41,602 nt of DNA from Eubacteriales bacterium (GTDB taxonomy: Bacteria > Bacillota > Clostridia > Lachnospirales > Lachnospiraceae). Numbering within the stretch: position 1 is the first letter of the stretch; each line of letters starts with the position of its first letter. The stretch spans positions 1 to 41,602 of the forward strand of contig JAUNHC010000044.1 in the NCBI GenBank assembly GCA_030524175.1, in the 5' to 3' direction. Both the position numbers and the translations under genes were made by a program. The notes below the pieces were generated by a model. That model was not told the DNA's origin and ran no database searches. It was given only the letters and a program-made list of their open reading frames with translations. Below are positions 6,302 to 23,044 of the stretch, in pieces.

Positions 6302-6318
6302 ACCAGTGTTTGCCCCAT

Positions 6319-7140: not shown

Positions 7141-8251
7141 TTTTCTTTCTTCTCCTTCGTCCAAACTCATATGTTCCATCCAGATCAGCTAGATAAATCA
7201 ATGGAAAACCTGAGACGATCTCCAGCGCAGAATTCTCCATTATTCCAGCAAGTAGAATAAGTATTGTTACAGCAAGAATGCTATATTTTTTTTTCTCAAT
7301 GCTTTTATACAATGTGAGCATATATCCCAAAAGGAACACAACAGTTCCAATAATTCCACATTGAAGCAACACAGAAAGATACGAACAGTCAATCGTGTTA
7401 TGTCCTTGCAATGCTGTATAATCTATCTCAATTCTACGTCCTAACCACTTAAATCCAAACTGCTGATAATTGTAATGATTTAAAATAGGTCTTCCTGAAA
7501 GCATCTGGCTCAACTCATAATGAATAGGATTTGTGTAATCAAAATTAATTGTGATATACATCACGGCAGTAAATATTAAGATTGGCAATAAGCATATTAT
7601 CACTTTAATGATTCTATTTTGCTTTTTGAGTATCTTTGGGAGCAACCATTTAATTATTGGTAACAGCACTAATAAGACTGCAGTTGTCCTACTAGATAAA
7701 ACAAATAGATTAACAAGTATTCCAGCAATCAACACAATCCATTGTCTTTTTCTGTATTTCTTGTCGCTCAGTGAAAAGTAAAGGAATATCATTGTAGTAA
7801 TCACAGAGCCGCAAACATTTGGATGACCAAAACCTAGTGCAATCGCATCACGACGACTTACACCGCTATTTGAAACGCCCAATATATAGAGAAGTACAGA
7901 TAATGCAAATGCAATGGTAGTTCCTTTCAATAGAACTTTGCATATTTCCTCATAGTTTTCTTTCTTAGACACAATGATAGCTAAGATTGCGCAAAGAAAT
8001 AACGCCTCTCCTGATGTAAAAGTTAAAACAACTCCCACAACTCCAAGAAGAGCGTATAACCCTAGTTCTTTGGCCCTATATCCCTTGACTTCTAGCCCTC
8101 CCAACAGCAACAAATAGTCTGCATATTGAAAATATTGAATGATAGTCATTACTACATTTGAACTACTTATTGCATATATCCTTGTTGCGGTATGTAAAAA
8201 AGCCAAGAGTCCCAATGCAAATAGTTTTAGTGTCCTCTTGTTCAACTTCAT
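7130..8251 (-). CDS. wzy: Wzy-like polysaccharide polymerase, O-antigen ligase fold
   Basis: 373 aa, strongly hydrophobic with about ten membrane segments and one larger extracytoplasmic loop (about residues 220-280) in the second half. That topology and the neighbouring wzx point to the polymerase joining repeat units outside the membrane. Sequence conservation in Wzy is poor, so the call rests on topology and context. It is the only intact polymerase candidate here; a second one at 8370-9521 is broken. A run of nine A on the coding strand (7286-7294) falls in the stretch encoding IEKKKYSIL and is a possible slippage site. The gene is in frame as given. Confidence 0.7.
   Translation of the reverse strand: MKLNKRTLKLFALGLLAFLHTATRIYAISSSNVVMTIIQYFQYADYLLLLGGLEVKGYRAKELGLYALLGVVGVVLTFTSGEALFLCAILAIIVSKKENYEEICKVLLKGTTIAFALSVLLYILGVSNSGVSRRDAIALGFGHPNVCGSVITTMIFLYFSLSDKKYRKRQWIVLIAGILVNLFVLSSRTTAVLLVLLPIIKWLLPKILKKQNRIIKVIICLLPILIFTAVMYITINFDYTNPIHYELSQMLSGRPILNHYNYQQFGFKWLGRRIEIDYTALQGHNTIDCSYLSVLLQCGIIGTVVFLLGYMLTLYKSIEKKKYSILAVTILILLAGIMENSALEIVSGFPLIYLADLDGTYEFGRRRRKKNDS
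7286..7294 (-). repeat. A9 homopolymer inside wzy
   Basis: Nine consecutive T on the plus strand (A on the coding strand), in frame in this copy. A length change would truncate the polymerase in its last third. A-tracts are common in AT-rich genomes, so this is weaker evidence of a contingency site than the G tracts. Confidence 0.5.
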
Positions 8252-8369
8252 GTTATCTCACCTTACAATCCACCGTATGGATTCCTTTCAACAAAATTGC
8301 CAACTATTCATCAACGCTTCTTTTCTGGAAACCGCAATTTGTTAGGCTGCGAACATGAAGCGAATGACC

Positions 8370-9521
8370 TTACTGACTTTGTTGATTTGCTGTCTGAGTT
8401 CTTGATTGTTTTAGTGCAATGTACGGAACACCCATTATCATGTATACTAAATATCCAGATATAGATACTCTTAAAGTTGAGTCTTTGACTGCCACAAGCA
8501 CCACACAGATAAAAAACAATTGAGAACTCACCAACCATTCGAAATTGTTCCTTTTTTCAAATTCGAATGGTTAAAATGAACCCCATTAGCCAGAATAATC
8601 CGTACCAGATTAACCCTAGAACGCCTCTTTCAATATATATCATGGAATGGAAATAGCCGTGATACATGTAAATGTTGTACCTGTCGTAAAATGCACTTGT
8701 AATCAACCGCCCAGCAACATTCATAAATTCAGCATTCCCCACTCCAATTCCAATCGACTTTGGTAGATTATAATTATAAAAGAAAACTCTGTTAATAATA
8801 TCAAATGCTGTGAATCTTCCAAAACCGTACGCACCAACGCATACTATTATCGCATACCAAAGCATATTTGAAATATTGGTTACATACGCAACCTGATCAG
8901 GAAAGGCAATCATTAGTACAAGCACCCCAGGCCTAAAAATCTCACTAAAGATCCCACCCACTTCGTCTTACTGAGAGAATGTCCCCTTACAAAGGAAAAA
9001 TTACAGCACCTATTAACACCAATTCTACATAGAATATTTTTATTTCATCGAGTACCGCCCAATAGACTGATATTAAAAGGATAACTATAGCTTTTCTCTT
9101 TTGTATTCTCTTATACAAGTTCCCGATAATTCCATAGGTAACCATTATATATAAGAAATGGTCTATGTCGTCCAGTTTCCAAAACATACAAACAACAAGG
9201 AATATTAATAAAAACCTATATTGATTTCGGATGCCCCAGAAAAACAAGATAACATCGGTTCTGGTTACTAATGCTCTTACAATGTCGAAAAGAAGCATAG
9301 TAAATATCATAATAATTACATATCTGCAATACCCCCCTCATTTCTTGCTTCATGAGCCCTATAATAATGAAAAAGAGTAGTATAATATTAATAATATCCA
9401 CCGTATGCTCCAGCAATGCCAGAGCAGGTATAACCTGTGCGATTAACTTAACCAGCATGCTAACCATTATTTGCCAATATATAAGTTTCCTAGGATTTAT
9501 TGTCAAATTCACACTAATCAC
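8370..9521 (-). pseudogene. Decayed Wzy-like membrane polymerase with at least three frame breaks
   Basis: Four consecutive pieces in different frames read as one hydrophobic protein of about 380 residues. The first starts MISVNLTINPRKLIYWQ at 9521 and loses frame near the C6 run at about 9332-9337. The second covers about 9310-8987 and ends at a TAA. The third covers about 8961-8557. The last, which I translated by hand, starts with FEFEKRNNFEWLVSSQLF at about 8560 and ends QTANQQSQ at 8370. The third piece contains YMYHGYFHSMIYIERGVLGLIWYGLFWL, similar to the C-terminal region of O-antigen polymerases. Flanking genes are intact, so genuine decay is likelier than poor sequence. It may be a former polymerase replaced by the one at 7130-8251. 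Confidence 0.7.
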
Positions 9522-9589
9522 CGAACTAAACCACTCCCTCCTCCTCTGTTCATTAAATATTCACAACAGTACCTCTAATGAACTAATTA

Positions 9590-10558
9590 TTAAACTCTTG
9601 CAACTTTAAGCGATTTTAACTTATTATAAATTGGTGCTACATGTATCCTTGCCATTATGGTTTTTACTTTCATAATTTTAGGAACACTATCGTTCTTAAT
9701 TACACTTTTCCAAACTTTATTTAAATCATTACACAGTATCTTCTCTTCCTGTTGAAATGCATTTTGATTTTTACTCTCATATAAGGTATATAGTATTTCA
9801 CATACCTTACACCCCCAAAAGGCATCCGCATCCTCAATATACCGTGGATAATGTCTTTTTGCTCTCTCCCATATCGCCTTAGAAAACTCATAATGATCCA
9901 TTTTCCTAATCGAAAAGGACTGACCACAGATGCTATCCGCTCTCTGGAAATAGTTGTATTGTGGCCTTCCAATTACCGCTACCTTACTAACGGAACATAG
10001 GATATCAAAAATTACCGGTGCATCTTCGTATTGTTTCCCCACGGGGAATCTGCGAGTGTCAAATAGGGATTTTAAATAGAGCTTATCCCCGGCCGAAGTA
10101 GAGAATGTACCCTGTTGAAGGTATGCTTGGATTATTTCATCTCCAGTAATGATAAAAGGCGTATCACATACGAACTGTACACGACTATACCCATTATCAT
10201 ATGTCCGTTTTATTCCCGTAACAGCTAACTCTGTGTTCTCCTGTTCAATGGCCCCAAGAAGATCCTGATACATATCTGGCTCAATCCAGTCATCGCTGTC
10301 AACAAATCCTATGTACTGCCCCGTTGCAATATCTAAACCTGCATTTCTCGCATCAGATAAACCACCATTCTTTTTATGAATTATCTTGATACGTCCATCT
10401 TTTTTGGCCCACTCATCGCACATTTCGCCGCAATTATCCGGCGAGCCGTCATCTACAAGAATGATTTCCAAATCCGCATACATCTGGTTGATTATGCTCT
10501 CCACGCAACGGTCCAAATATGCAGCTACATTATAAACTGGTACAATTACTGAAATCAT
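9590..10558 (-). CDS. GT2 family glycosyltransferase
   Basis: 322 aa with a complete GT-A domain at the N-terminus: ISVIVPVYNVAAYLDRCVESI, EIILVDDGSPDNCG and FVDSDDW, the last giving the metal-binding DXD. These are textbook GT2 (WcaA-like) motifs. The C-terminal third has no obvious membrane anchor. It would transfer one sugar to the undecaprenyl-linked repeat unit in the cytoplasm. It follows the NAD-dependent epimerase gene and precedes the broken polymerase. Family certain; donor sugar unknown. Confidence 0.9.
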   Translation of the reverse strand: MISVIVPVYNVAAYLDRCVESIINQMYADLEIILVDDGSPDNCGEMCDEWAKKDGRIKIIHKKNGGLSDARNAGLDIATGQYIGFVDSDDWIEPDMYQDLLGAIEQENTELAVTGIKRTYDNGYSRVQFVCDTPFIITGDEIIQAYLQQGTFSTSAGDKLYLKSLFDTRRFPVGKQYEDAPVIFDILCSVSKVAVIGRPQYNYFQRADSICGQSFSIRKMDHYEFSKAIWERAKRHYPRYIEDADAFWGCKVCEILYTLYESKNQNAFQQEEKILCNDLNKVWKSVIKNDSVPKIMKVKTIMARIHVAPIYNKLKSLKVARV

Positions 10559-10593
10559 GTCACTCCCTCCTGCGGATTTGAATACTTCAGTTC

Positions 10594-11553
10594 TTATCTA
10601 TCTATGATATCTTTCAGTTCAGATACCAGTTCCTTAATTGCGAGTTTAATTGATTCATCCGAAGTCATCTCGGTTTTCCACCCAAGATCATTTGCCTTAT
10701 CCACGTTGTATTCATAGAAGGCCACATCTCCCTTCCAGCCGATAGACTGCTCTTCATAGTTAATTGGTATTGTAGCAAACCCCATTTCTTCTGCAACAGT
10801 CTTTGCAATGAAACGAACATTCGTGCAAGTTGTAGCCCCAACATTCAGAATTTGGATTCCATTAGTTGTGCCAGCCAGCATCATAATGGCACGAATCAGC
10901 TCCGTCACATGGCAGTAAGGCTTTGTCTGGTAACCATTCCCGCGCACATCAAGATGATTGGGTTCCTTATTCAGACGCAAGATAAAGTCCCTGATTACAC
11001 CATGTGTCATCTTTCCTCCAATGATATTCGAGAAGCGGAAGATTAATGCATTGAAGTCATTCATGTGGGCAAACGCATATATATATGCTTCTGATGCCAT
11101 CTTTGCCGCACCATAATATGATATCGGAAACAGCTTATCGTCTTCTTTGAATCCCTCACCTGTCTGCTCCCCATAAATGGCAGAAGTTGATGAAAAAAAT
11201 ATATCCTTGACGCCTTTTGCTTTCATTGCATTAACTAGTGCTTTGGTAGTGAGGAATGTATTCACATGTTCAATTTCTGGATCCCTCATGCTCTCCCACA
11301 AGTCTGTATTGGCTGCAAGATGGAAAACAAAGTCTATTTCATATTTTTCTAAAATCTCTTCCAGTGCAGACTGATTCGTGGCATCCTGTTTGACGAAAGT
11401 GAAATTAACATTTCCCATTAAAGGACGAATATTATACTCATTCCCGCGTTGTAGATTGTCTACGCAAACTACTTTAAGGCCTTTTTCCAAAAGCGCTTTA
11501 CACAGATAACATCCAATAAATCCAGCTCCGCCGGTTACCATTACATTCTTCAT
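10594..11553 (-). CDS. NAD-dependent sugar-nucleotide epimerase/dehydratase
   Basis: 319-aa extended short-chain dehydrogenase. The NAD site reads VTGGAGFIGCYLCKAL at residues 5-20, VDNLQRG follows the second strand, and SSTSAIYGE with SYYGAAK gives the Ser/Thr and the Tyr-X3-Lys catalytic pair near residue 147. This is the GalE/WbpP group acting on UDP- or other NDP-sugars; C4 epimerisation or 4,6-dehydration cannot be separated by eye. It lies directly downstream of the acyltransferase and likely supplies a donor to one of the local glycosyltransferases. Confidence 0.85.
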   Translation of the reverse strand: MKNVMVTGGAGFIGCYLCKALLEKGLKVVCVDNLQRGNEYNIRPLMGNVNFTFVKQDATNQSALEEILEKYEIDFVFHLAANTDLWESMRDPEIEHVNTFLTTKALVNAMKAKGVKDIFFSSTSAIYGEQTGEGFKEDDKLFPISYYGAAKMASEAYIYAFAHMNDFNALIFRFSNIIGGKMTHGVIRDFILRLNKEPNHLDVRGNGYQTKPYCHVTELIRAIMMLAGTTNGIQILNVGATTCTNVRFIAKTVAEEMGFATIPINYEEQSIGWKGDVAFYEYNVDKANDLGWKTEMTSDESIKLAIKELVSELKDIIDR

Positions 11554-11562
11554 TTTAATCTC

Positions 11563-12674
11563 CTATCTTTCTGATTTTAAACCGCTCCTTCTTGAGCCAG
11601 TTAAAATAATGTATAAAGCGGGAAGTAATTTCTTGAGTATAAAGCTAACAAGTACACAGATTACACATACCGCAAACGGCAAAATGAAATAAGCTAATAT
11701 TTGGGCCCAGTCTGTACCCGGTAGCAATTTCTCGCTGATTTTTTTTAAAACAGTTTGAACAAAATCACTGGATACATATACGAAAAAACTGAATTCTGCC
11801 AATATTTCAGCCGCCTTTGGTACATAATTATTTTTACAAATGTATCCTGATAATCTGATTAACAAGAAAATCCCTGTTATAACGGAAAAGGAATGGGCTG
11901 CAACCTTCAATGCACTATCCGTTACATAAAAGTAATATTCTATCGTAATCAGAATGATATATAAAATACCCCCCCCCTAACGGATAATTTATCAAGCAAC
12001 TTCATCCGTATGCCGTATTTAACCACATAATATCCCAAGCAGAAAAATACAATACTTTGCGTGTTCAGAATCAATATTCCTGGTACATGTCCCATATTCC
12101 AGAGAATCATAAGAAGTATGAAAACTAACCTCGGAAACCTGTCTATAAGAATTTTTATCATTGGCGCAATGAAATTTAAAATAATCAAATCTCGCAAAAA
12201 CCAAAGTGCGTTTACAAAAATTCCATTACCGCCAACTCCAGTGTATGCGCCAATAAAATCACAAATAGCCATCTCTCTGACTTGCCTTTTGGCATTGGCA
12301 AAGTACAATGCAGTTGCCGGAATTGTCTGCCCGATACAATAAATCAAAATGTATATAGTTATCCAAAGTACATATGGAAAAATCAGCGATTTCAGCTTTT
12401 TCTTCATATTGCTTTTCCAAGTGAACTCTTTTGCATAAAGCAATACTGAAGAAATCAAAAAAAACAAGGGTACAGCAGCAAATGTTACAATACGCGAAAT
12501 TATGTATTGAATCGCTTCAAGTGTTTGATTTGAAACTACTGTTCCTGTTGCCACAAATGCTGTATCTCCCAATGCTCCGGCATATTGATGTAGAAATATA
12601 ACAAGGACAACGCAAAGAGCCCTTAGACAGGTTATTCGATTTGACTCTCTTTTATCTATTGTGTATATTACCAT
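11563..12674 (-). pseudogene. Acyltransferase-3 family O-acyltransferase, out of frame at a G9 tract (phase OFF)
   Basis: The ATG at 12674 (GGGAG 8 nt upstream) opens a frame with acyltransferase-3 features: ITCLRALCVVLVIFLHQYAG at the N-terminus and repeated membrane segments. It stops at 11949 just after nine G (11969-11977). The missing C-terminal half lies in the next frame: my reading GILYIILITIEYYFYVTDSALK joins without a stop to residues ending at 11563. One extra G (or two fewer) would restore a protein of about 370 aa, the normal family length. The family adds acetyl or other acyl groups to surface sugars through the membrane. This looks like a switch in the OFF state rather than permanent decay. 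The GT8 gene stop lies 2 nt upstream. Confidence 0.8.
11969..11977 (-). repeat. G9 homopolymer tract, probable phase-variation switch
   Basis: Nine consecutive C on the plus strand. By hand, 9 G gives a stop 6 codons past the tract; 7 or 10 G continues into the open C-terminal frame of the acyltransferase. Confidence 0.85.
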
Positions 12675-12676
12675 TC

Positions 12677-13714
12677 TCAAATCTCCCGCTTAATCTTCTT
12701 ATCCATATCCGAAATGTGTTCACGCAACCATTGAATCCATCTGTATCTCAGCTTAAAATAGGCGTTATCATGCCCGTTCATTCTCAGATAGATGAGCATC
12801 TTGTAATAAAATTTAAAGAATAGCGAAATATTATCCGGCTTCTTATCTAAAGGTTCTTTACCCCATGGAGAATTCTTGTAATATTTCATGTATTCGGTTT
12901 TATATCGACAAATATTATTCTCATACCATGGTCGATTAAAGTAATCCCCAATGAAATGTACAATAATCGGATGAGCAATTGCTTTTTCGTATTCATCTTT
13001 TTCAAATACCGTCTTTCGCTGGTACCATTTGCATATAGTTTCGTAAGGGATACCATGGAGGGCAGTAGAAAAATTATATTTAACAGGCAGGGTCATCGTA
13101 TGGTCTTTAAAAACCAAATTCAGAATGCTCTGTTCAGCAATTCGAAAGGGCTGCTTAGCATCTGCCACACACTTGCGAATCATTGCATCACCATCAAATT
13201 TGCGCCAGTTTTCAAGGTTGATATATGCAACACCATAATTGATATAATGCGGACATTGATTCAGCAGATCCAAATCCTCGTAGCACAGGTCGGCAATCAT
13301 GACAGAAATCTCGTACACACCAGCTACAATGTTGTCTGCCATATCCAAGGTTTCAAGATCAGTCAGACTCCCTGTCACCATAAGATCAGAGTCAATAAAC
13401 AATGCCCTCTTTACATCAGCAGACATAAACTTGTTCGCCATTGCCCTTGCATAGGTATTCAGACCCCCCTTAAAGTCAAGGAGGTTCAACTCGCTCTGAG
13501 CCTGCTCAAGTATAGCCAATGCTTCGACTACAACCATTTTACGCTTGTACTTCTCACACATATCATTTAGCATCTGCTGATGCTCTTTCGACATGTCTGT
13601 TGTCAACACATAGATATTCAATTCTCCCAGTTCTTTGTTGTTCTCCAAAAGCGAATAGATGGCGATGCCTGTACATTTCGCATATAAATCACTGGAACAG
13701 AAAACTACATTCAT
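12677..13714 (-). CDS. GT8 family glycosyltransferase
   Basis: 345 aa. It starts MNVVFCSSDLYAKCTGIAIYSLLENN and has ALFIDSDLMVTGSL near residue 108, the DXD motif in the exact setting of GT8 (LgtC-like) retaining transferases. HFIGDYFNRPWY near residue 250 corresponds to the conserved HF-G-KPW block that binds the donor. GT8 enzymes typically use UDP-galactose or UDP-glucose. The stop sits 2 nt before the acyltransferase start and the gene lies 17 nt after the GT26 gene, so it is part of the same transcript. Confidence 0.9.
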   Translation of the reverse strand: MNVVFCSSDLYAKCTGIAIYSLLENNKELGELNIYVLTTDMSKEHQQMLNDMCEKYKRKMVVVEALAILEQAQSELNLLDFKGGLNTYARAMANKFMSADVKRALFIDSDLMVTGSLTDLETLDMADNIVAGVYEISVMIADLCYEDLDLLNQCPHYINYGVAYINLENWRKFDGDAMIRKCVADAKQPFRIAEQSILNLVFKDHTMTLPVKYNFSTALHGIPYETICKWYQRKTVFEKDEYEKAIAHPIIVHFIGDYFNRPWYENNICRYKTEYMKYYKNSPWGKEPLDKKPDNISLFFKFYYKMLIYLRMNGHDNAYFKLRYRWIQWLREHISDMDKKIKREI

Positions 13715-13731
13715 TTAATTATCCTCGTTTC

Positions 13732-14496
13732 TTACTCAGTAACAGCACCTTTCTTGTACTGTCTTGCCCATTTACGCATAAAAATGAGCGTAGGTAAATC
13801 GTGGATGATATAGCGTTCAAAAAGTCTCTTCGGCTCCTGAACCATCCGGAAAAACCACTCCATACCTGTTTTATTCACCCACTCGGGTGCCTGTTTAATG
13901 CGACCTGCAAAATAGTCAATAGCAATTCCCGCTCCAAAGGTAACCGGAATGCCAAATTTCCTGCGGTACTTTTCCACAAATATTTCCTGTTTGGGTGCGC
14001 TTAAAGCCATGAGAAGAATATCCGCTTTACTGTCAGTCAACATCTTCACCATCTTTGCAGTTTCCTGCTCATCTCTTTCAAAGCCAAATGGCGGACAATA
14101 ATACTCGGATTCAAAGTTCCCATACATCTTCTTGATGTTCTCCAAGGCTTTTTCCGCAGAGCCTTCTTTGCCGCCAAGAATAAAAATCTTATACTGCTTC
14201 TTAGCAGCGAGCTCACAAAGCGCCAGCGTAATGCTAGGACCAACCACTTTCTGTTTAAGAGGTTTTCCCATCCATTTGGATATCCACATTACAGGGGTAC
14301 CATCCGGAGGACACAGAACGGCATTATTAATTGCTTTGGCAAAATCCGGGTTGTTCTGTATAAGATAAAGTTGATTCAGATTGATACCCGTACCAAATAT
14401 CTGTTTCCGGTTTCTGATTGCTTCATCCGATAACTCCATCATTTCTTCAAGAGAGCCGTTTAAAACATGGACATTGAGAATCTTTACACTATCCAT
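13732..14496 (-). CDS. WecG/TagA/CpsF family glycosyltransferase (GT26)
   Basis: 254 aa, typical for the family. Characteristic blocks are GTGINLNQLY, PDGTPVMWISKWMG, LSAPKQEIFVEKYRRKFG and GAGIAIDYFAGRIKQAPEWVNKTGMEWFFRM. GT26 members transfer N-acetylmannosamine(uronic acid) or related sugars onto undecaprenyl-PP-GlcNAc; TagA does this in wall teichoic acid and WecG in enterobacterial common antigen. It probably adds the second sugar of the repeat unit. The basic C-terminal tail (about residues 220-254) may mediate membrane contact. No priming glycosyl-1-phosphate transferase is visible in the window, so the first step must be encoded elsewhere. Confidence 0.92.
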   Translation of the reverse strand: MDSVKILNVHVLNGSLEEMMELSDEAIRNRKQIFGTGINLNQLYLIQNNPDFAKAINNAVLCPPDGTPVMWISKWMGKPLKQKVVGPSITLALCELAAKKQYKIFILGGKEGSAEKALENIKKMYGNFESEYYCPPFGFERDEQETAKMVKMLTDSKADILLMALSAPKQEIFVEKYRRKFGIPVTFGAGIAIDYFAGRIKQAPEWVNKTGMEWFFRMVQEPKRLFERYIIHDLPTLIFMRKWARQYKKGAVTE

Positions 14497-14505
14497 CGCT
14501 TACCT

Positions 14506-15429
14506 CTAATTATTATCTCTGATCCACAAAGCAGTTCTCCTTATGCCATCTTCAAAACTGACCTTCGGTTCAAAGCCTGTGTCTCTTGCTAATTTACTTA
14601 CATCAAATGTCTCAATAGGAAGGCTGATAACGTTGCTTGTAACCTTTCCAAAACCAAGTGGAATGTCTGAGCCATTGATTTCGTTCGCAACTTTCCCCAC
14701 AACCTTCAGAAACTTTCTAAGCTCTTTCGCTTCACCGGAGCCAATGGTATAATTTCTTCCATTAATTCCTTTTTCCGCAATCAAATAAAGTGCGCGAGCA
14801 ACATCACTTACATGTACAAAGTCATAGTATTGATTGCCCGCGGACAAGTCGGGTGATTCGTTCTTATATATTTTTCTTATGATTGTATTTACAAGCCTCG
14901 CAGAACTCTCTTCTTCTCCGTATGTATTAATGAGAGGCCAGAAGAAGCGAATGCCATAGCTACCTGCCTTGGCTTTCCCCATCCAATGCGCGGATGTTTT
15001 CGCGGACTTATAAAAGAACCCGAGGTTATCGACTACCTTATCCTCTGCCATCTCCACAAGCGCCTCAGCTTCATGCATGCTGCCGCAGCCAATGATAGTT
15101 TTAATTTCCATCTCATACATTGCATCAATAAGATCAAGGGTTGCTACAAGATTTTTGATTTGCACATCCTGGTTACGTGCATCTGTATCTGATACTCCCT
15201 GCCACGCAGTATGGAAAACTACTTCTATATCTCTATCATCGATGTACATTGGAAGTTCGCTAATTCTATCCAAGCTGCATTCCACTACATGTACTCCGGC
15301 AGGAAGATTTCCTATATTTCCGGTATTTGGACGTACAATAGCAAAAACCTCAATGTTCTGTGTCAGTAACTCTCTAACTAAAAACTTCCCTATAAAGCCG
15401 GTAGCACCAGTTACTATTGCTTTTTTCAT
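14506..15429 (-). CDS. NAD(P)-dependent epimerase/reductase, likely last step of the CDP-6-deoxyhexose branch
   Basis: 307-aa extended SDR: VTGATGFIGKFLVREL at residues 6-21 binds the cofactor and FFYKSAKTSAHWMG near residue 138 carries the Tyr-X3-Lys pair. HVSDVARALYLIAEKGINGRNYTIGSGE is the usual substrate-domain block. It overlaps the RfbC-like gene by 4 nt and follows rfbF and rfbG, so it most likely reduces or epimerises the CDP-4-keto-6-deoxyhexose they produce. The exact sugar (6-deoxy-altrose, -gulose or another isomer) cannot be told from sequence. Confidence 0.8.
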   Translation of the reverse strand: MKKAIVTGATGFIGKFLVRELLTQNIEVFAIVRPNTGNIGNLPAGVHVVECSLDRISELPMYIDDRDIEVVFHTAWQGVSDTDARNQDVQIKNLVATLDLIDAMYEMEIKTIIGCGSMHEAEALVEMAEDKVVDNLGFFYKSAKTSAHWMGKAKAGSYGIRFFWPLINTYGEEESSARLVNTIIRKIYKNESPDLSAGNQYYDFVHVSDVARALYLIAEKGINGRNYTIGSGEAKELRKFLKVVGKVANEINGSDIPLGFGKVTSNVISLPIETFDVSKLARDTGFEPKVSFEDGIRRTALWIRDNN

Positions 15430-15992
15430 CTCACCAGTCCCTTCTTGTATTCTTCAAAAGTTGGCCAGTTCTTGTCCTTATCTGTTGCAATAACTTGTTC
15501 GATACCGTACTCTTTTAACGGCCAGGGGATATTGAGTGTCGGATCATCCCAACGAATACCGCCACAAGCCTCTGGAACATAACGTCCTGAACACTGATAT
15601 GAGAAAACCGTGTCATCTTTTAAAGCAATAAAACCATGTGCAAATCCCTCTGGGATGAACTCAAATTTTTGACTATTTTCGTCCAGAAGCTCAGCTCTAT
15701 ATTTCCCAAATGTCGGTGAATCACGTCTTAAATCAACAGCTACATCAAATAATGCCCCACATATAACATGAATCAGCTTAGCTTGCGAATCAACGGTTTG
15801 ATAATGTAATCCACGCAATGCACCTTTCTTAGAATACAAATCACTGCTTTCAGTAAACTCACAGGTAATACCGTTTTCAGCGAAAATAAATTTCTCATAA
15901 TTTTTCTTATACAAACCACGGTCATCTGGGAACATATGCGGTTTAATAATCAGGAGACCAGGGATTTCCGTATTATGAAATGCAAAAGCCAT
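15426..15992 (-). CDS. rfbC: RfbC/RmlC-like NDP-4-keto-6-deoxyhexose 3,5-epimerase
   Basis: 188 aa starting MAFAFHNTEIPGLLIIKPHMFPDDRG; GGAGGG lies 8 nt upstream. ALRGLHYQ near residue 61 holds the catalytic His, and FIPEGFAHGFIAL with FSYQCSGRY completes the cupin core. RmlC epimerises C3 and C5 of dTDP-4-keto-6-deoxyglucose. No rmlA, rmlB or rmlD is present here and the neighbours are the CDP-glucose enzymes, so a CDP-linked substrate is more likely; that is inference. The start overlaps the end of rfbG by 20 nt. A longer frame to 16019 exists but has no advantage. Confidence 0.88.
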   Translation of the reverse strand: MAFAFHNTEIPGLLIIKPHMFPDDRGLYKKNYEKFIFAENGITCEFTESSDLYSKKGALRGLHYQTVDSQAKLIHVICGALFDVAVDLRRDSPTFGKYRAELLDENSQKFEFIPEGFAHGFIALKDDTVFSYQCSGRYVPEACGGIRWDDPTLNIPWPLKEYGIEQVIATDKDKNWPTFEEYKKGLVR

Positions 15993-17052
15993 AATCGTGT
16001 CCCTCCAAAAATTCCTCAAGCTGTCTGTCCATCACCGTTCTTACATTCTCTCCTGCTACCCATGCCTTGCTCCATTCCACAACCTTCTCTATCGCTGTTT
16101 CCAGATTCCAGCGTGGATGCCAGTTAAATGTATTTTTCAATTTTGAACAGTCGAGTTTTAGAAAATTTGCTTCGTGTGGACCACCATCATATTTGCTCAC
16201 CCATTTGAGTCCTTCTCCCCAGTGCTTAACGAATAATTCCACCAAAACACCTGTCTGGAAGCAATCCTGGTCATTTGGGCCTACATTGTACCATGACTGA
16301 TACCTAGGATTGTGATACTGCATTGCTGCAATCATCAAATAAGCATACACCGGCTCCAAGACATGCTGATAGGGACGGGTTGAAAAAGGATTCCTGACAA
16401 TAATGTCTTCACTTTTTACCGCCGCCCTGATGCAATCTGGTATGATTCTATCATTTGCAAAGTCACCGCCACCGATTACGTTGCCAGCACGAACTGTGGA
16501 CACAGAGACACGGTTATCTGCCCAAAAAGAGGACTTATAGCTGTGTGTTACAAGCTCTGAACATGATTTCGAATTGGAATATGGATCATAGCCATCTAAA
16601 GGATCGTTCTCACGATAACCCCATTCCCATTCCTTATTTTCATAGACCTTATCTGTGGTGACATTAAGAAAAGAACGGACTGAACGTGTCTGTCTTACAG
16701 CTTCACAGATGTTCACAGTGCCCATAACATTGGTACTGTAAGTGCCAACAGGATCCCTATAACCATCACGCACAATCGGCTGCGCCGCCATATGGATAAC
16801 TATTTCAGGTTGATATCTTCTACAGACCTCCAGCAAATGATCTAAATCACGCACATCACCTTTGATATGAGTAATCTGTTCTTTTACACCACAAAGATCA
16901 AAAAGGCAATCAGTTTTTTTTCTGCAGCTTGCATAACCGATAACTTCTGCTCCAGCATTAACAAGCATTACACACATCCACGAACCTTTAAACCCGGTAT
17001 GGCCTGTCAGTAAAACTTTTTTATTTTTATAAAAACTCAAATCAAACCTCAT
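15973..17052 (-). CDS. rfbG: CDP-glucose 4,6-dehydratase
   Basis: 359 aa, the usual length. LLTGHTGFKGSWMCVML near residue 14 is the NAD-binding motif in the form specific to RfbG; HMAAQPIVRDGYRDP, NVTTDKVYENKEW and YDPYSNSKSCSELV (Tyr-X3-Lys) follow in the expected order. It converts CDP-glucose to CDP-4-keto-6-deoxyglucose, the branch point for CDP-dideoxy and 6-deoxyhexoses. GAGGGGAA precedes the start, and rfbF ends 9 nt upstream. An eight-A run (16914-16921) early in the gene is a possible but weak slippage site. Confidence 0.95.
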   Translation of the reverse strand: MRFDLSFYKNKKVLLTGHTGFKGSWMCVMLVNAGAEVIGYASCRKKTDCLFDLCGVKEQITHIKGDVRDLDHLLEVCRRYQPEIVIHMAAQPIVRDGYRDPVGTYSTNVMGTVNICEAVRQTRSVRSFLNVTTDKVYENKEWEWGYRENDPLDGYDPYSNSKSCSELVTHSYKSSFWADNRVSVSTVRAGNVIGGGDFANDRIIPDCIRAAVKSEDIIVRNPFSTRPYQHVLEPVYAYLMIAAMQYHNPRYQSWYNVGPNDQDCFQTGVLVELFVKHWGEGLKWVSKYDGGPHEANFLKLDCSKLKNTFNWHPRWNLETAIEKVVEWSKAWVAGENVRTVMDRQLEEFLEGHDYGFCIS

Positions 17053-17061
17053 GCTTTCCCC

Positions 17062-17844
17062 TCAATCTTCCCAGGTTTTCCACGGAGCTTTCCCTTGTTG
17101 AAGCAATTGCTCGAGCTTCTCCATCTCACGTTTCGTATCCATACACTGCCAGAAACCATCATGACGAAAAGCCTTAAGCTGACCATCCGCTGCCAGTCGC
17201 TGCATGGGTTCCTTCTCAAACACAGATGCATCATCCACGAGATAGTCAAAGATTACGGGCTCAAGCACCATGTAACCGCCATTAATTCGGGCACCATCAA
17301 GATCGTCCTTCTCACGGAAAGAACAGATATCATCCGTATCGGTGATATCAAGTACACCTTTTAATTGCTCGAATACTACAGATGTAATGGTGCAAACTTT
17401 TCCGGATGCTTTATGGAACTCCACAAGTTTACCAATGTCCACGTCTGATACACCATCCCCATATGTAAGCATGAAAGTCTCACCCTCAACATAAGGCTTC
17501 ACACGCTTCACACGACCGCCTGTCATAGTGTTCAGCCCGGTGTCCACAACCGTAACTTTCCAAGGCTCTATATTCTGATTATGGATAATCATGTCATTTC
17601 TTCCCTGAGTAAAATCAAATGTAATATCACTATTATGAAGGAAATAGTCTGCAAACCACTCCTTTATCATATGTTGCTTATATCCAGCACAGATGATGAA
17701 CTCATTGAAACCAAAATGGGAATATTCCTTCATTATGTGCCACATAATTGGCTTTCCACCAATTTCAATCATTGGTTTTGGTTTTAAATGAGACTCTTCA
17801 GATATTCTTGTTCCAAATCCACCAGCCAGAATAACTACTTTCAT
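17062..17844 (-). CDS. rfbF: Glucose-1-phosphate cytidylyltransferase
   Basis: 260 aa, matching the 257-aa norm. It starts MKVVILAGGFGTRISEESHLK, the nucleotide-binding signature with the RISEES form specific to RfbF; KPMIEIGGKPIMWHIMKEYSHFG and YGDGVSDVD follow. It makes CDP-glucose from CTP and glucose-1-phosphate, feeding rfbG directly downstream. AAAGGAG lies about 9 nt before the ATG at 17844; the frame is open to 17871 but that extension has no ribosome site and is not family-like. Confidence 0.95.
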   Translation of the reverse strand: MKVVILAGGFGTRISEESHLKPKPMIEIGGKPIMWHIMKEYSHFGFNEFIICAGYKQHMIKEWFADYFLHNSDITFDFTQGRNDMIIHNQNIEPWKVTVVDTGLNTMTGGRVKRVKPYVEGETFMLTYGDGVSDVDIGKLVEFHKASGKVCTITSVVFEQLKGVLDITDTDDICSFREKDDLDGARINGGYMVLEPVIFDYLVDDASVFEKEPMQRLAADGQLKAFRHDGFWQCMDTKREMEKLEQLLQQGKAPWKTWED

Positions 17845-17904
17845 ATTCAAATTCTCCTTTGGGTACTTCACTAATATTAAGCCTTGCTCAGGGACAAACC
17901 GCCT

Positions 17905-20900
17905 TTATTCTGCTAGTTTTATTGATATATTCACAGCCTCATTTTCGGACTTGTTGTTTTCATCTTTTTCTTCCCGCATCCAAACCTCACAATCCCAAAC
18001 CTCAACCCCACTATCCTCAAACACCCCACGCAGTCTCTTCTGCAGTTGTTCTTTTGTGACGCCTTTTTTCAAAAGCACCTGCAGAAACCCTCCGCCGCCT
18101 GCGCCGCAAATAAATCTCGCAGCGAGTAAATCCTCACACGATTGAAATATCTGGTCAATGCAGGTGTTTGTTGAGCCTTGGTCCAGTTGTTTGGACAATT
18201 CCCAGTGTTCGTCTAAAAGATTTGCGAAGGAATCAAGGTTGCCTTCCTCAAGTTCAAAGCACATCCGGGGCACCATGCGTTTCATTTTATAAAGAGCATC
18301 AACGGACTCTTTACGACCGCCGATATAGTTACCAACTACATCTCGCAGGAGGTTTCTTGCTAGTCGGCGCTGTCCGGTATAGATAAGTACGAATCGGCTG
18401 CTCAATTCTTTCAATGTGTCTTGGGCGATATCAAGCTGGTGTACGCGGATATCCTGACGGATGCCCGGCTTAGAAAGGATACACTTGATCCCTGGAGTGA
18501 GTCCACCCACCTGATCCTGCCAGCCCCCTCCGGTGCTCATAATCTGTTCTATTCCCAGGACTATATCATAAAGTTCATTTTCTCCGGCATCCCTACCTAA
18601 TAAGTGGTATATAGCCTTTGCACATGCACCGGCCAAAATGCTACTGGTTCCAAGACCGGAGCCTTTGGGTACACCGATGACACGAGTGGAAAGATAAATC
18701 CCACCGCCTAGTCTCCTGAGAATTTCTACAAGGTTTCCTCCCCCTTCCATGGGTATGATTCCGCAGGCAATAAGGGTTGCCTTGTGTAGTACAAAGGGGT
18801 CATAGGGATTATGACAATCCTGAATATCGGATAGTTCAGTAAAGCTTCCTTTTGCGCCAAAGTCCACACTTTCAAATACAATCCTCAGTTCCTTTAGTCT
18901 TCTTGCCTCCGCACATATTGGCAGCTTTCCTCGCAGCGATATCGCCGCATTCAATACGGCACCGCCTTGTTCATTGCAGTAGGGCGGAGTATCAGTCCAG
19001 CCTCCGGCAAGGTTAATTCTTACAGGCAGCTTAACCTCCACATTTTCCTTTTGTATACGACAGTTTTCATCTAAGACAATCCGCTGCCTCATTTCCTGAA
19101 AAATCTCATTTTGTATTGTATGAAAACACATCGTTTCTAAGGCATCATACGCTTTACCGTCAAAATGGAGCCGGTTTTCTTTCATAATTCTTGACAGATC
19201 ATAAAAGATACGAATCTTATCGGAAAAATCACTTTTTTCCGCAGTCTCAATCATCTGCCGGAATCGTTCGATATTCAATCCAGCCGTTCCAAAAACCTTG
19301 TTTGCCTCTTTGTAATAAATTCCTGCACGGATATTTTGCAGAAATTTATCTACCAGGATTCTGTTTTCTAAAGACTTCTGCATCCGCAGGCCATGTCGCA
19401 TATCTGCGGCATTGAAACTGGAATATAGACTTAAGCGTTCACATGCTTTCCAAGCCTGGATTTCCTTTTTCGATGCAGTGCCTTTGGCCATACGGCAGAG
19501 CATTACTGCATAATCAAGTGCATCCTTTTGAGCGGAACACGCCGGGTAAAGTTTTGCAAACCATAAGTATTCTTCACCCTGTCGCTCTTCGTCCCACAAG
19601 TCCATTACGCTTAGATTATTTATATCCATGAAATTCTTTAAATTTGTGCCCATAAAGCTTGGATTATCAGCAAGGCAGCTCTTGGGATTATCCTCCACAC
19701 CGAAAGCTCTAACCACATATTTACCATTCCCAAGCTTCAGCCCATGAAAAACCGTTTCAGGGGGTATGGTCTCGTTTTCCATCTCAATTCCAGACACAAC
19801 AGAGTGTTTCCCAAGTTCTACCCCTTTTCCAAGGTAGCTGTCCTCGACATAACAGGCATCAGAGAGCTGGACATCCTTGGATATAAAACTATTATGTATG
19901 GCGAAATTTCCTTCATCTTTCCAGTTCGTTCCTACCAGACGTTTCCAATCTAGAAATTCATATGCCCCTATAGTTTCCGTGAGAAGTTGGAGTAACTCGC
20001 GGGTTGTCCCAAAATGAATGAATTCTGCTGGAGACAGGTGAAGAAGTTTCATATTATAATGATGGATTGCCTCCCATATTTCTTTTCTGCAGGCAAGCAG
20101 TTCCTCGCATATCTGTCCTTCTGCAGTTTCTTTATAATACTGTTCCAAGGTTGATTCCCCTGCAAGCGGATAGAGAAAATCTCCATAAAAGCTCAACCTT
20201 GCTTTCTCATTGACAAATCTGCTGTATTTGACCTCATCTGGCTTTCCATTTGTGGAAATCAGAGAATATAGAGCGTGGAGCAGGCTGCAGTCCATGAGGA
20301 TTGCACCCGTATCCAAATCTACTTTATCTTGTGTGTTTACTGCACCCAACTCACGTAAACGGTATTCTGTTTGTTTATGTAAAAACTGGGCCACATTATC
20401 ATTACCGTCATTGAGAAAAACACCATGGTTTTTTCCAGTATTGACATGCTCTTTTATAGAAATAGCCGCAGCACCGTCAAATTGGGAATCAATTTGCAGA
20501 GGATTGAACAGAAGCAGAACATCTCCGGATAAAACCAGCATTCCTTCTTTGATTCTCGCGGGAACCCCTGACATTCCTATTATAAATTCGTCAAACAACG
20601 TAGACGTTTCACCGTTAGGCAATTCTCGCGGCACTGGCGAAAAAAGCTTTCCGCAGGCAGAATATTGAGGTACTCGTTTGCTGTCTCCACCGGAATGGAT
20701 GACCATAATGCGCCTGCCCTTAAAAGGTTCCTCGGCTTTTTCCCGGTCTGCGATATACCGCAGGGCATGAAACGTTGCTCCGCCGGACCCCACTCTTTTC
20801 CCTTCAGGGTCAGGGAGAACCGCATAGTGGACTTTTTCGGGAATCAAATGATTGTCAAGGCGATACTGGATCTGCTCCCTGTAAATCTCAGCCTGCGCCT

Positions 20901-21036
20901 CATTGGACGCCGTCAGAATCAAATAATCCCATCTGATAAAGTTCTCTTTGTTAATGCTTCTGTTATAATCTTCCCAGGAATCAAGATAAGACTGCCTAAG
21001 AAAAAGATTCTGCATTTTATGGTACTGTGCTTTCAT
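17905..21036 (-). CDS. fkp: Bifunctional L-fucokinase / fucose-1-phosphate guanylyltransferase
   Basis: 1043 aa, somewhat longer than Bacteroides Fkp (about 950). The N-terminal half is the GDP-fucose pyrophosphorylase domain: GKRVGSGGATFHALRY near residue 79 and SGGDSKRVPQYSACGK near residue 115. A left-handed helix-like stretch (about 395-455) follows. The C-terminal half is a GHMP kinase: VRINLAGGWTDTPPYCNEQGG near 690 and PKGSGLGTSSILAGACAKA near 800, the ATP loop. The enzyme phosphorylates free L-fucose and makes GDP-L-fucose, so the cell can put host-derived fucose on its surface. It is the first gene of the polysaccharide operon; AAGGA lies 7 nt before the start. Related heptose or arabinose kinases share this layout, so the substrate is likely rather than proven. 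Confidence 0.88.
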   Translation of the reverse strand: MKAQYHKMQNLFLRQSYLDSWEDYNRSINKENFIRWDYLILTASNEAQAEIYREQIQYRLDNHLIPEKVHYAVLPDPEGKRVGSGGATFHALRYIADREKAEEPFKGRRIMVIHSGGDSKRVPQYSACGKLFSPVPRELPNGETSTLFDEFIIGMSGVPARIKEGMLVLSGDVLLLFNPLQIDSQFDGAAAISIKEHVNTGKNHGVFLNDGNDNVAQFLHKQTEYRLRELGAVNTQDKVDLDTGAILMDCSLLHALYSLISTNGKPDEVKYSRFVNEKARLSFYGDFLYPLAGESTLEQYYKETAEGQICEELLACRKEIWEAIHHYNMKLLHLSPAEFIHFGTTRELLQLLTETIGAYEFLDWKRLVGTNWKDEGNFAIHNSFISKDVQLSDACYVEDSYLGKGVELGKHSVVSGIEMENETIPPETVFHGLKLGNGKYVVRAFGVEDNPKSCLADNPSFMGTNLKNFMDINNLSVMDLWDEERQGEEYLWFAKLYPACSAQKDALDYAVMLCRMAKGTASKKEIQAWKACERLSLYSSFNAADMRHGLRMQKSLENRILVDKFLQNIRAGIYYKEANKVFGTAGLNIERFRQMIETAEKSDFSDKIRIFYDLSRIMKENRLHFDGKAYDALETMCFHTIQNEIFQEMRQRIVLDENCRIQKENVEVKLPVRINLAGGWTDTPPYCNEQGGAVLNAAISLRGKLPICAEARRLKELRIVFESVDFGAKGSFTELSDIQDCHNPYDPFVLHKATLIACGIIPMEGGGNLVEILRRLGGGIYLSTRVIGVPKGSGLGTSSILAGACAKAIYHLLGRDAGENELYDIVLGIEQIMSTGGGWQDQVGGLTPGIKCILSKPGIRQDIRVHQLDIAQDTLKELSSRFVLIYTGQRRLARNLLRDVVGNYIGGRKESVDALYKMKRMVPRMCFELEEGNLDSFANLLDEHWELSKQLDQGSTNTCIDQIFQSCEDLLAARFICGAGGGGFLQVLLKKGVTKEQLQKRLRGVFEDSGVEVWDCEVWMREEKDENNKSENEAVNISIKLAE

Positions 21037-21352
21037 TTTTCGTTCCTTATTGATGTTTCACCGGTTATCCTTACCTGTGATTATAGTTAGGTTTCTCATG
21101 ATCCAGAGGGATATCCTCTGTCAAGCACCTTTTTAAAAAAATAACTTCAAATACCCTCTCCCTATCCCCAATAGGGCACCCGGGACGTCTTCGCTGACTC
21201 TTTCCTATAAGAAAAGACACAACAGGCGGTATTCAACCTGACAGAGATTGTCACTGGCAGTCTCTGTGTTTCGCTCTCGCTGTATTCTCCGAAGTTTCGC
21301 TTCGAATCATTCTTTATGCAGGCACGTCATTGGCGTGCCTTTAAAACAGTGG
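21037..21352 (-). ncRNA. Hairpin-rich segment: candidate guide (omega-like) RNA and/or fkp leader
   Basis: No gene lies in these 316 bases. Perfect stem-loops seen by eye are 21321-21339 (GGCACG stem), 21290-21304 (CGAAG stem), 21241-21267 (ACAGAGA stem, 13-nt loop), 21160-21176 (CCCTAT stem) and 21104-21120 (CAGAGG stem). This density is unusual for a plain spacer. In TnpB and TldR systems the guide RNA scaffold lies directly 3' of the protein gene, which is exactly this position on the minus strand. It could equally be the structured leader of the fkp operon, or both. No guide or RNA boundary could be assigned. Confidence 0.4.
21080..21124 (-). promoter_or_regulatory. TTGACA and TATAAT-like boxes around a 17-bp palindrome before fkp
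   Basis: On the minus strand a perfect TTGACA (21119-21124) and TATAAT (21080-21085) lie 44-83 bases before fkp, but 33 bases apart, too far for an ordinary sigma-70 promoter. The palindrome CAGAGG-N5-CCTCTG (21104-21120) sits between them and overlaps the last bases of the -35-like box. It may be an operator, or the boxes may belong to different promoters. The real start site is unknown. Confidence 0.3.
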
Positions 21353-22558
21353 TCATCCCACATGTTTCCCGAATTGAATGAGGCATTTCTTTCCCATATT
21401 CCTTGCAGAATTCAGGTAGCGGCTGCCCCGGTGGCCGTCCTCGCACACATATTCATTCGTCTTCTTATCCGTAAATATTACTTTTTTTCCGCATTTCGCA
21501 CACACGGAGCTGATGTCGTTTGCGTGGACCTCTATGACGATGATCCCGGATTTCCAGGCTTTATATGACAGATACTGGCGGATTCTTGTGCTGAGATGTA
21601 TGGGGCTCCAGTCACCGGAGCTGACCATCACATATTTTGTGTAATTTTCGTTATATTTTGGCAAGACAATGACTGAAACTGCCTGTTCCTCACAATACCG
21701 CACAATTTCTGTGCTTACCTTATGTGCATAATGCTCTGCCAGGTGTTTGAGATGCATCCAATACTTCTGATTTGGACGCCCTGGCTGAGAGCCGCCCATT
21801 GATCTGCGGGACTTCTCGATTTTTTCTGTAAGCTGTCTGCAATGGTGGCTGTATTCTTTTCCGCCGTTCCAGAACTTTGCAGAAAGCTCTTGACCCTTTG
21901 AATTCATAACAGTTCCAACAGCAAAAGCATCACTGTTGGTAAACTGAACGCTGCATAAGTTTCTTTCCTCTGACAAGCGCTGCTTTACTGAGGATGTATC
22001 ATGGACGGTTTCCTTCACAGGGACGTGAAGCATGACAAAACCATTCTCAAATACCACAGACGGAGACATAAGCTGTGCGTCTTGGGGAAGTTCTCTGCCG
22101 TAGAGCCGGCAGTGCAGCCATTGCCATTGACTGCCGTCCCAGACCTTCAGAGTTATCTCATCCGGATAAAAATCGCGGTACATCCCTTTATAGTACACAA
22201 CTGCGGAATTTAGCTGTCCGGCCTTACGTCCGGGTGCAGTTTCCATACGTGTGCAGTGGCTTTTAGCCGCAGCAATTCCTGCATTGGCTGCAGCCCGCCT
22301 GAAATAAAGCGGAACTTTTTCCCAGGGTAGCGGTTCTTCAGGTTCTTTTTTGTTCCTTCCGGGAATGCTCAGCACTTCCAGCTCTCTGAGTATTTTCTGA
22401 CTGTTCAAATCCCATAATTGTGGATTCTTCAGAAGTAGTTCATAGTAGAAACGCTCAATCTTATTGTAAAATTTCTGTGTTAACCGCAGCCATTCAGGAT
22501 GTTTGCAGCGTAACCGGAGCCGTCGGGTAGTAATACTGTACCCCTGTGTACTGCTCAT
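21353..22558 (-). CDS. TnpB-like protein with all three RuvC catalytic acids lost (TldR-like)
   Basis: 401 aa from the ATG at 22558 (GGTGA 5 nt upstream; a TTG at 22570 adds 4 residues). The C-terminal half is recognisably TnpB/Cas12-type RuvC: a beta strand NLCSVQFTNSDAFAVG, a second strand VSVIVLPKYNENY, a zinc-finger region with CAKCG, and the closing SRYLNSARNM. In active TnpB these positions carry Asp (GIDLG), Glu (IVxEDL) and Asp (DRDxNAA). Here they are Phe206, Pro300 and Tyr381. The second zinc pair is also altered (CEDGH). The frame is otherwise intact and full length, so this is not decay. It fits a domesticated RNA-guided DNA-binding protein without nuclease activity. There is no tnpA. 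The next gene on the same strand is fkp, after a hairpin-rich spacer. An inactive transposon remnant is the alternative. Confidence 0.75.
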   Translation of the reverse strand: MSSTQGYSITTRRLRLRCKHPEWLRLTQKFYNKIERFYYELLLKNPQLWDLNSQKILRELEVLSIPGRNKKEPEEPLPWEKVPLYFRRAAANAGIAAAKSHCTRMETAPGRKAGQLNSAVVYYKGMYRDFYPDEITLKVWDGSQWQWLHCRLYGRELPQDAQLMSPSVVFENGFVMLHVPVKETVHDTSSVKQRLSEERNLCSVQFTNSDAFAVGTVMNSKGQELSAKFWNGGKEYSHHCRQLTEKIEKSRRSMGGSQPGRPNQKYWMHLKHLAEHYAHKVSTEIVRYCEEQAVSVIVLPKYNENYTKYVMVSSGDWSPIHLSTRIRQYLSYKAWKSGIIVIEVHANDISSVCAKCGKKVIFTDKKTNEYVCEDGHRGSRYLNSARNMGKKCLIQFGKHVG

Positions 22559-22653
22559 TTTTGTCACCAAAATCCCTTCATTTTGAAATTTGGCATTAAT
22601 CTTCTCGGCGCAAATTTTATTTAATATATAACTTATCCAATAATTATTTTTTT

Positions 22654-22678
22654 GTCGCTTATTATCGTAATAAGCGGC
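22654..22678. repeat. 25-bp palindrome, near-copy of the terminator stem at 23012-23040
   Basis: An 11-bp stem around TCG, differing from the core of the downstream palindrome mainly in loop orientation and one base. It is preceded by T7 on the plus strand and is not followed by a T-run on either strand, so it does not look like a terminator. It may be a protein-binding site or a dispersed repeat. Confidence 0.5.
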
Positions 22679-22680
22679 AG

Positions 22681-22719
22681 AAATAAGAAAACCTGTATAA
22701 AATATGGGTTTTCTTATTT
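22681..22719. other. 13-bp perfect stem-loop upstream of the TnpB-like gene
   Basis: AAATAAGAAAACC pairs perfectly with GGTTTTCTTATTT across a 13-nt loop. On the plus strand it runs into TATTTTAT, so it could terminate plus-strand transcripts. On the minus strand it would lie in the leader of the TnpB-like gene. Confidence 0.5.
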
Positions 22720-22932
22720 TTATTTTATAAATGACTACTTATAAAAATGGTTTGTTTGAACGATTGTTCTGAAATATGGTGATATAATTTGATAGATAAA
22801 CAATTTTTCAATCTAGAAATGTCTCTTAATCTGACCCCTTGTCTGACCATTTATACAGGGAATTTTGCTATAAATGAAATTTTATTTGTTTTTTGCGACA
22901 GATTATGACACTAAGACGTCATTATTCACAGC

Positions 22933-23044
22933 TTGACAGGACAAATATGAAGTGTTACCATAAATTAGGCCTAAAAATCAACAATAAGCCCATCTAATAT
23001 ATAAAAAAATCAAGCCGCTTATTACGATAATAAGCGGCTTTTTT
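22933..23044 (+). promoter_or_regulatory. Possible plus-strand promoter and small RNA ending at a terminator
   Basis: TTGACA at 22933-22938 is followed after 17 bases by TACCAT (22956-22961). Transcription would start near 22968 and end at the terminator at 23044, giving a roughly 75-nt RNA without a reading frame. The -10 box matches only 4 of 6 positions, so this is tentative. It would be the only plus-strand transcript in the window. Confidence 0.25.
23012..23044. terminator. Strong bidirectional intrinsic terminator after the aldo/keto reductase gene
   Basis: AAGCCGCTTATTA and its exact complement form a 13-bp stem with a CGA loop. It is followed by T6 on the plus strand and, after four bases, T7 on the minus strand. 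It lies about 105 bases past the reductase stop. Confidence 0.8.

Follow-up and report, generated by a model that had tools for sequence, protein, structure and literature searches.

This study asked what a TnpB-like gene beside a surface polysaccharide operon still does: whether its product cuts DNA, is a defective transposon protein or regulates the operon. The gene lies in the window, by which we mean the whole analyzed stretch of 41,602 nucleotides from a Lachnospiraceae genome (contig JAUNHC010000044.1). The first-pass annotation of this DNA had proposed a TnpB-like nuclease-dead repressor (TldR) that would use a guide RNA to block promoters and would thereby control a surface glycan. The features of the locus are collected in Table 1.

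Table 1. Features of the window at and around the TnpB-like gene
Feature	Position	Strand	Basis
Further surface polysaccharide genes, same strand	4856..17871	-	Domain scan, except 6302-9589 and 11554-11948
fkp-type gene (fucose pyrophosphorylase and GHMP kinase), first glycan gene	17905..21036	-	Pfam
AT-rich variable stretch, expected place of a guide (nucleotides 5-15 past the junction)	21130..21140	-	Base composition
Omega-RNA-like structured scaffold with three covarying helices, presumed protein partner	21139..21270	-	Covariance model, E 1.8e-21 (the model was built from 33 sequences, the window among them)
Near-constant 3' end of the RNA (AAG-TTAT), either a fixed seed or the end of the scaffold	21141..21147	-	Pattern in 37 of 42 loci
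Extra 5' stem-forming sequence between reading frame and RNA model, less conserved	21271..21345	-	By eye
tldR-like gene, nuclease-dead TnpB-like (TldR-like) protein, 401 aa	21353..22558	-	Reading frame, Pfam, alignment, AlphaFold model
Leader motif GATAAGTTAT between proximal arm and start codon	22628..22637	-	Sequence comparison
Inverted-repeat arm of presumed invertible promoter, proximal	22656..22678	.	23 nt, 100% complementary to distal arm
Promoter-like TTGACA-17-TACCAT between the arms, directed away from tldR	22933..22961	+	Best site, 10/12
Inverted-repeat arm of presumed invertible promoter, distal	23014..23036	.	335 nt between arms

Protein fold and RuvC active site

The reading frame (21353-22570, reverse strand) is uninterrupted from the start codon ATG at 22558 onward, in agreement with the earlier description of it as full length. 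Pfam identified Cas12f1-like_TNB in the 401-aa protein (E 5e-10) and gave OrfB_IS605 at E 2e-4, which is under the cut-off of that family; the NCBIfam model guided_TnpB scored 59.9 bits, which is sub-threshold against a cut-off of 100. A profile built from 16 clade members matched PDB chains of Cas12f and TnpB (best E 1e-8), and the AlphaFold model (mean pLDDT 85.1, pTM 0.61) matched the structures of AsCas12f, OsCas12f, ISFba1 TnpB, and dCas12f with E values from 3.8e-14 to 7.5e-11. The zinc ribbon CxxC...CxxGH is retained, as the annotation had reported for its CxxC. The profile alignment and structure modeling that it had recommended thus indicate that the protein adopts the TnpB/Cas12f fold expected of a TldR. 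CRISPR-Cas12f was rejected as an identity because no CRISPR array lies beside the gene; the only direct repeat of at least 18 nt in 20800-23400 is the pair of inverton arms.

As catalytic reference we used L155, the nearest active relative found, an IS605-type TnpB with the motifs CAVDLG, IVFEYLD, and NCDLN. Its three RuvC acids aligned by MAFFT to Gln205, Pro300, and Tyr381 of the window protein. The annotation had placed them at Phe206, Pro300, and Tyr381; the latter two positions held, whereas the RuvC-I aspartate belongs one residue earlier, an offset that leaves intact the claim that all three acids are replaced. The 42-locus alignment described below has aspartate or glutamate at columns 205, 206, 300, and 381 in no row, with G098a (which ends before RuvC-III) and G433b (which lacks the zinc ribbon) being uninformative for RuvC-III, and column 300 is proline in every row except G433b (alanine). 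An active IS200/IS605 TnpB was rejected as an identity, given that the RuvC D-E-D is missing in this alignment and in that with L155.

A nuclease could survive these losses if other acids had moved into the active site, and several acids are well conserved. Only E61, D187, D210, and E/D275 are acidic in at least 90% of the 39 rows that exceed 380 aa, and none of them occupies a catalytic column. The nearly invariant D187 and D210 columns comprise 36 D and 3 N, and 35 D, 3 N, and 1 E, respectively. Residue 275 lies in the modeled helix 264-291, ahead of the RuvC-II strand 294-301, and position 301, which is E or D in some paralogs, is variable and is K in the window. These observations make a rearranged catalytic site in the window protein very unlikely.

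Clade, glycan operons and presumed invertible promoters

The search located 48 places with related genes. Seven were left out (G098 contig 134, G174, G242 contig 11, a tandem copy in G424, G431, and two pieces on G451 contig 36) and L013 was added, giving 42 Lachnospiraceae loci that encode RuvC-dead proteins of the TnpB/Cas12f fold. The loss of the RuvC acids in an intact frame, as in TldRs, appears to be general in this clade, with 39 of the 42 genes coding for more than 380 aa; broken or partial copies are G098a and G433b among the 42 and the gene in two pieces on G451 contig 36 among those left out. At L065 (G424 contig 109), a second tldR copy stands in tandem, and its decayed RNA end reads AAAGTATTGG. 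Outside Lachnospiraceae, five members (L170-L174) were found in G1092, one genome of another family that consists of a single complete contig; their RuvC-I and RuvC-II motifs are dead in all five, and the RuvC-III motif was matched in four.

The genome of the window carries three further full-length paralogs of 42-47% identity. Clade members occur in 14 of 64 genomes of the same genus, with up to four per genome, and in at least 9 of 397 genomes sampled from the family when the best four candidates per genome were scored. The class sample gave matches in 5 of 391 genomes, and the strong ones, besides those in the window's own genome, were confined to G1092. Phages yielded no match to the clade, viral contigs no confirmed match, and plasmids 10 records that were all remote TnpB (21-32% identity). 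No transposase was present among the window neighbors scanned, and the copies within this genome have diverged to the 42-47% given above. Across 11 pairs, dN/dS was 0.057-0.105, with dS saturated (>1) in several pairs; by this measure the clade is under purifying selection.

The genes that follow tldR on the same strand encode surface polysaccharide functions, as the annotation had noted. The scanned genes in 4856..17871 are of the following types: NTP transferase, epimerases, dTDP-sugar isomerase, WecG/TagA, GT8, acyltransferase, GT2, and Polysacc_synt flippase. Within 3.2 kb downstream, 38 of the 42 loci have an open reading frame of 180 aa or more and four have none; we scanned 31 of the 38 (30 plus the window), omitting G098a, G411d, G412a, G412b, G433a, G455b, and G455d. 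The first such frame on the same strand was a glycan gene at 27 of the 30 loci, where two of the 27 (a DUF4422 protein and a lone CoA_binding_3 protein) are presumed by us to be glycan genes, and the remaining three were two frames with no Pfam match and one thymidylate-kinase-like protein. The first sizeable downstream frame is 1-2 kb away from tldR in some loci. In G1092, the first frame of at least 150 aa was a glycan gene at five of five loci. These results point to a stable association with non-transposon genes, which is a further property of TldRs.

Homologues with the same substitutions in the same setting, which the annotation had named as a check, were thus found at many loci. Its own alternative, a merely defective transposon protein, finds little support, since the full-length genes, the purifying selection, and the common setting all speak against it; nor are the homologues degenerate scattered copies, most of them being intact and located alike.

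The region upstream of tldR in the window is built like an invertible promoter. The segment between the two arms contains three promoter-like sites, compared with a mean of 3.6 after shuffling, and the best of them is directed away from tldR, which suggests that the assembly captured the switch in its off state. At 27 of 41 loci, we found exact inverted repeats of 15 nt or longer whose near arm lies no more than 350 nt from the start codon, the longest in 205 mononucleotide shuffles being 17; seven of the other 14 loci have inverted repeats of 11-13 nt and seven have none. All five G1092 loci have repeats of 15-26 nt. Between G405a and G412a, a 1.44-kb segment containing a tyrosine recombinase gene is inverted, with 91.6% identity and flanks at approximately 97%. 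The claim that the locus is phase-variable is supported by anatomy in the window; the inversion itself was observed in these relatives and not in the window.

A script called the promoter on at 12 loci, off at 20, and undecided at two, with L013 scored as off although it appears on by eye. The loci called on include both of those in G407 and two of the four in G411. More than one locus can therefore be on in a genome, and inversion alone does not enforce a single coat.

Several other elements were observed in this region. Tyrosine recombinase genes lie upstream of tldR at L070, L069, L068, and L013 (by Pfam) and at L062, L064, L077, and L088 (by motif only). Direct repeat pairs of the form TGGTCA-N4..9-(T/G)GGTCA occur upstream of tldR at 21 of 46 loci (22832-22850 in the window) and in 1 of 920 shuffles. 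They point forward in 17 loci, none of which was called on, and are reversed in four, of which G388a, G412a, and G455d were called on and H5 is on by eye. The pairs are probably recombinase arm sites inside the invertible segment. A near-palindromic leader motif of the GATAAGT type was seen at 18 of 37 loci, 11 of which have exactly GATAAGTTAT, and it shares AAGTTAT with the 3' end of the RNA.

The downstream RNA and its candidate guide

A structured RNA is predicted immediately downstream of tldR. The alignment comprised 33 sequences, namely the 35 loci of the guide tests minus the near duplicates G412a and G407a. Its three helices were paired in 87.0% of cells, compared with 68.8% after shuffling, and changes on both sides of a pair numbered 170 versus 52.7 (none of 500 shuffles reached this level, and slid controls did not exceed 55), for a structure drawn by hand from the very alignment on which it was scored; two pairs, 44-160 and 54-91, fit poorly. 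The helix at the 3' end pairs GAATACC with GGTATTC and has covarying forms, and we take it to be the positional counterpart of the guide-adjacent stem in TnpB RNAs. Across 12 genomes of the genus that carry tldR, the covariance model gave 31 matches (150 of 263-710 candidates scored per genome), every one of them next to a tldR gene. Rfam had nothing at the site, its one match being sub-threshold (E 0.99) and elsewhere. The RNA end of L155 has little likeness to this scaffold. The G1092 RNAs were assessed by eye, and their constant end differs from that of the 42-locus clade. The gene is thus accompanied by a scaffold of the guide-RNA type, as TldRs are, and the protein is its presumed partner.

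The RNA is closed by the pattern [GCA]AAGT[TA]AT at 37 of 42 loci, the letters being in part set by the search because loci were chosen by this pattern; in the 35 loci used further, the end reads AAG and then TTAT, except for TAAT at one of them. Five distant loci have other ends, by eye for example AGAGGTAT or AGAGATAT, and the constant end of the five G1092 loci is CGAGTTTTAAAT. L155 reads GAGAGTTCAC ahead of its likely guide, which suggests that TTAT may be an old right-end tetranucleotide and that any guide would begin past it. At 35 loci, bases 5-15 past the junction are 74-97% A or T, compared with 46-80% beyond position 15.

We searched for targets of this stretch at 35 loci, after dropping the broken G098a and G433b and the pattern-less G016a, G016b, G242a, G242b, and G242d. 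Comparison with the upstream and downstream regions of own and sister loci revealed no cognate preference (permutation p 0.55, 0.53, and 0.36), and the cognate differences in nine combinations of region and offset stayed within approximately 1.4 null SD. Sister loci showed an uncorrected excess downstream of up to 0.60 against a null SD of 0.27, which after centring left 2 of 16 tests with p values of 0.02 and 0.04 and was not significant after correction. The best individual matches were mostly A- or T-rich runs. Against the GATAAGT leader (18 loci), positions 5-15 matched 4.56 of 11 bases in cognate pairs and 4.59 in others (p 0.53); as a universal target this leader was rejected, the motif being missing at 19 of 37 loci.

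Genome-wide searches with 16-mers covered three guides (G412c in G412, G405, and G263; G000c in its own genome; H5 in G1092), and at 0-1 mismatches each matched only itself. All matches of the G412c and G000c guides together were at the control level, with three-mismatch ones among the matches listed. The H5 guide had 23 matches in total versus 8 in the reversed control, with an excess of two-mismatch matches. After correction, no target above chance emerged from leaders, promoters, and downstream regions, or from whole genomes for the three guides, in tests that are blind to an AT-rich seed of six to nine bases with an adjacent motif.

Two pairs of loci illustrate how the RNA end behaves. G405b (L080) and G412c (L078) are 95.4% identical over a 2.5-kb block that takes in the upstream region, the gene, and the RNA; homology ends approximately 10 bases past the junction, and from there the two loci have different glycan genes. 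With dS at 0.096, 11 of 16 bases are kept at positions 5-20; the bases in the guide place change even in this near-identical pair, since the cassettes of the two loci diverge at that point. G402a and G407a, whose proteins are 79% identical with dS at 1.6, share 59 identical bases past the junction, in a comparison in which the RNA ahead of the junction is almost identical too and G402a ends after the 59 bases.

Interpretation and comparison with known systems

The anatomy of the locus lends good support to describing the window protein as a TldR-like regulator of a phase-variable glycan. We give a probability of roughly 0.6 to the reading in which the bacterium domesticated the TnpB of an IS605-type element and turned it into a regulator dedicated to phase-variable surface glycan operons, for which we infer RNA binding, DNA binding, and repression. 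When the promoter is flipped on, one mRNA would yield both the protein and the RNA. Their complex would bind DNA without cutting it and adjust transcription, most likely by holding down competing glycan loci or by damping its own operon, and one or a few coats would be made at a time. Of the repressor originally proposed, the dead TnpB under selection, the covarying RNA, and the glycan setting stood. Guidance of the protein to a promoter by the RNA is conjectural, no target having exceeded chance in the guide searches; the window protein may nonetheless act as an RNA-guided repressor. The missing guide target also counts against the regulator reading itself, as do the changed bases in the guide place between G405b and G412c, the 14 of 41 loci without inverted repeats of at least 15 nt and the promoters of G407 and G411, which are not limited to one on per genome.

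If the domesticated regulator exists, its RNA could work in different ways. Programmable guides may have been abandoned, such that the near-fixed RNA end (AAG-TTAT, or CGAGTTTTAAAT in G1092) serves as a hard-wired seed or self-recognition tag that also provides coat exclusivity, a suggestion we put forward tentatively. The complex would then bind the boundary of its own operon, the GATAAGT-bearing leader, or sister loci, exclusivity would be added on top of DNA inversion, and glycan cassettes could be exchanged right behind the RNA. Each locus might instead carry a true guide of approximately 12-16 nt that represses a specific other gene, as in flagellin-linked TldRs. The AT-rich stretch of roughly guide length, the 59 bases that G402a and G407a share at a high dS (although the preceding RNA is near-identical too), the uncorrected paralog excess downstream, and an architecture shared with the csrA-tldR loci and their invertons, as described in PMC13418256, are consistent with this classical arrangement; it is nevertheless doubtful, considering that at 0-1 mismatches the three guides searched genome-wide matched only themselves and that no own or paralog leader was matched beyond chance.

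An RNA-protein element that acts in cis, with a fixed and non-programmable RNA end, would agree with the position of the RNA between tldR and the glycan genes, with an end that stays near-constant while the cassette may change right behind it, and with the failure of the guide searches to find a target in trans. Such an element would engage the nascent transcript (through antitermination, processing, or leader control) or the DNA of its own RNA-operon junction. We consider it unlikely, in view of a fold that is that of DNA-targeting effectors and of the 31 RNA matches among the candidates scored, none of which lacked tldR. A selfish or neutral IS605 remnant carried along by the glycan locus would explain the TnpB ancestry and the broken or partial copies, including the G424 tandem; the predominance of full-length genes, the low dN/dS, the covariation of the RNA, and the same setting in two bacterial families render it highly improbable. 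An active nuclease with a rearranged site, which the nearly invariant acids might suggest, has almost no probability, as all three catalytic columns are lost, position 210 varies, and the acids at 275 and 301 are, respectively, inside a helix and not conserved.

Should the domesticated-regulator reading be true, the choice of surface sugar that a gut commensal presents to host and phages would fall to a descendant of an RNA-guided nuclease. Several genomes of this lineage carry three to five of these loci. The system is directly testable, with defined protein-RNA pairs and a promoter state that is readable from orientation. Such tests could draw on related genomes distinguished by an inversion or by a different glycan cassette after a near-identical module, and the five closely related loci in the one complete genome G1092 are well suited to target mapping.

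Regulators at the head of invertible polysaccharide loci have a parallel in Bacteroides, where UpxY, a NusG-like antiterminator, and its inhibitor UpxZ control invertible capsule loci. Regulator genes heading phase-variable polysaccharide operons, several per genome, are common to both systems; UpxY and UpxZ differ in having no kinship to TnpB. The fliC- and oppF-TldRs of Wiegand et al. 2024 reportedly have demonstrated guide-target pairs and repression. They share with the present clade the loss of the RuvC acids in an intact frame, the downstream RNA, and non-transposon neighbors, but those neighbors are genes other than glycan genes. A further relation is to dCas12f, which is linked to a sigma factor. 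The likeness to dCas12f (PDB 9n9c, 9n9m) consists in a nuclease-deactivated Cas12f fold, with a structural match at E 7.5e-11.

Among titles and the beginnings of abstracts, none reported a TnpB or TldR located at a glycan operon; the founding TldR paper (Wiegand 2024) or Altae-Tran 2023 may list the clade. The closest precedent that we found, described in PMC13418256, is the csrA-linked TldRs of gut Clostridia (Oscillibacter, Flavonifractor), with hin invertons and four loci in one genome, although it concerns flagellin. That source predicts cross-targeting of flagellin, shows fliC guide targets by ChIP-seq, and gives the seed as nucleotides 1-6 in a figure legend. Its system has flagellin, CsrA, a Hin invertase, and ChIP-seq fliC targets, whereas the present clade has glycan operons, with tyrosine recombinase genes at part of the loci, a near-constant RNA end, and no guide target in our searches. 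Both systems occur in gut Clostridia and combine a dead TnpB with an RNA encoded 3' of tldR, promoter-bearing DNA inversions beside the locus, several loci per genome, and a surface structure.
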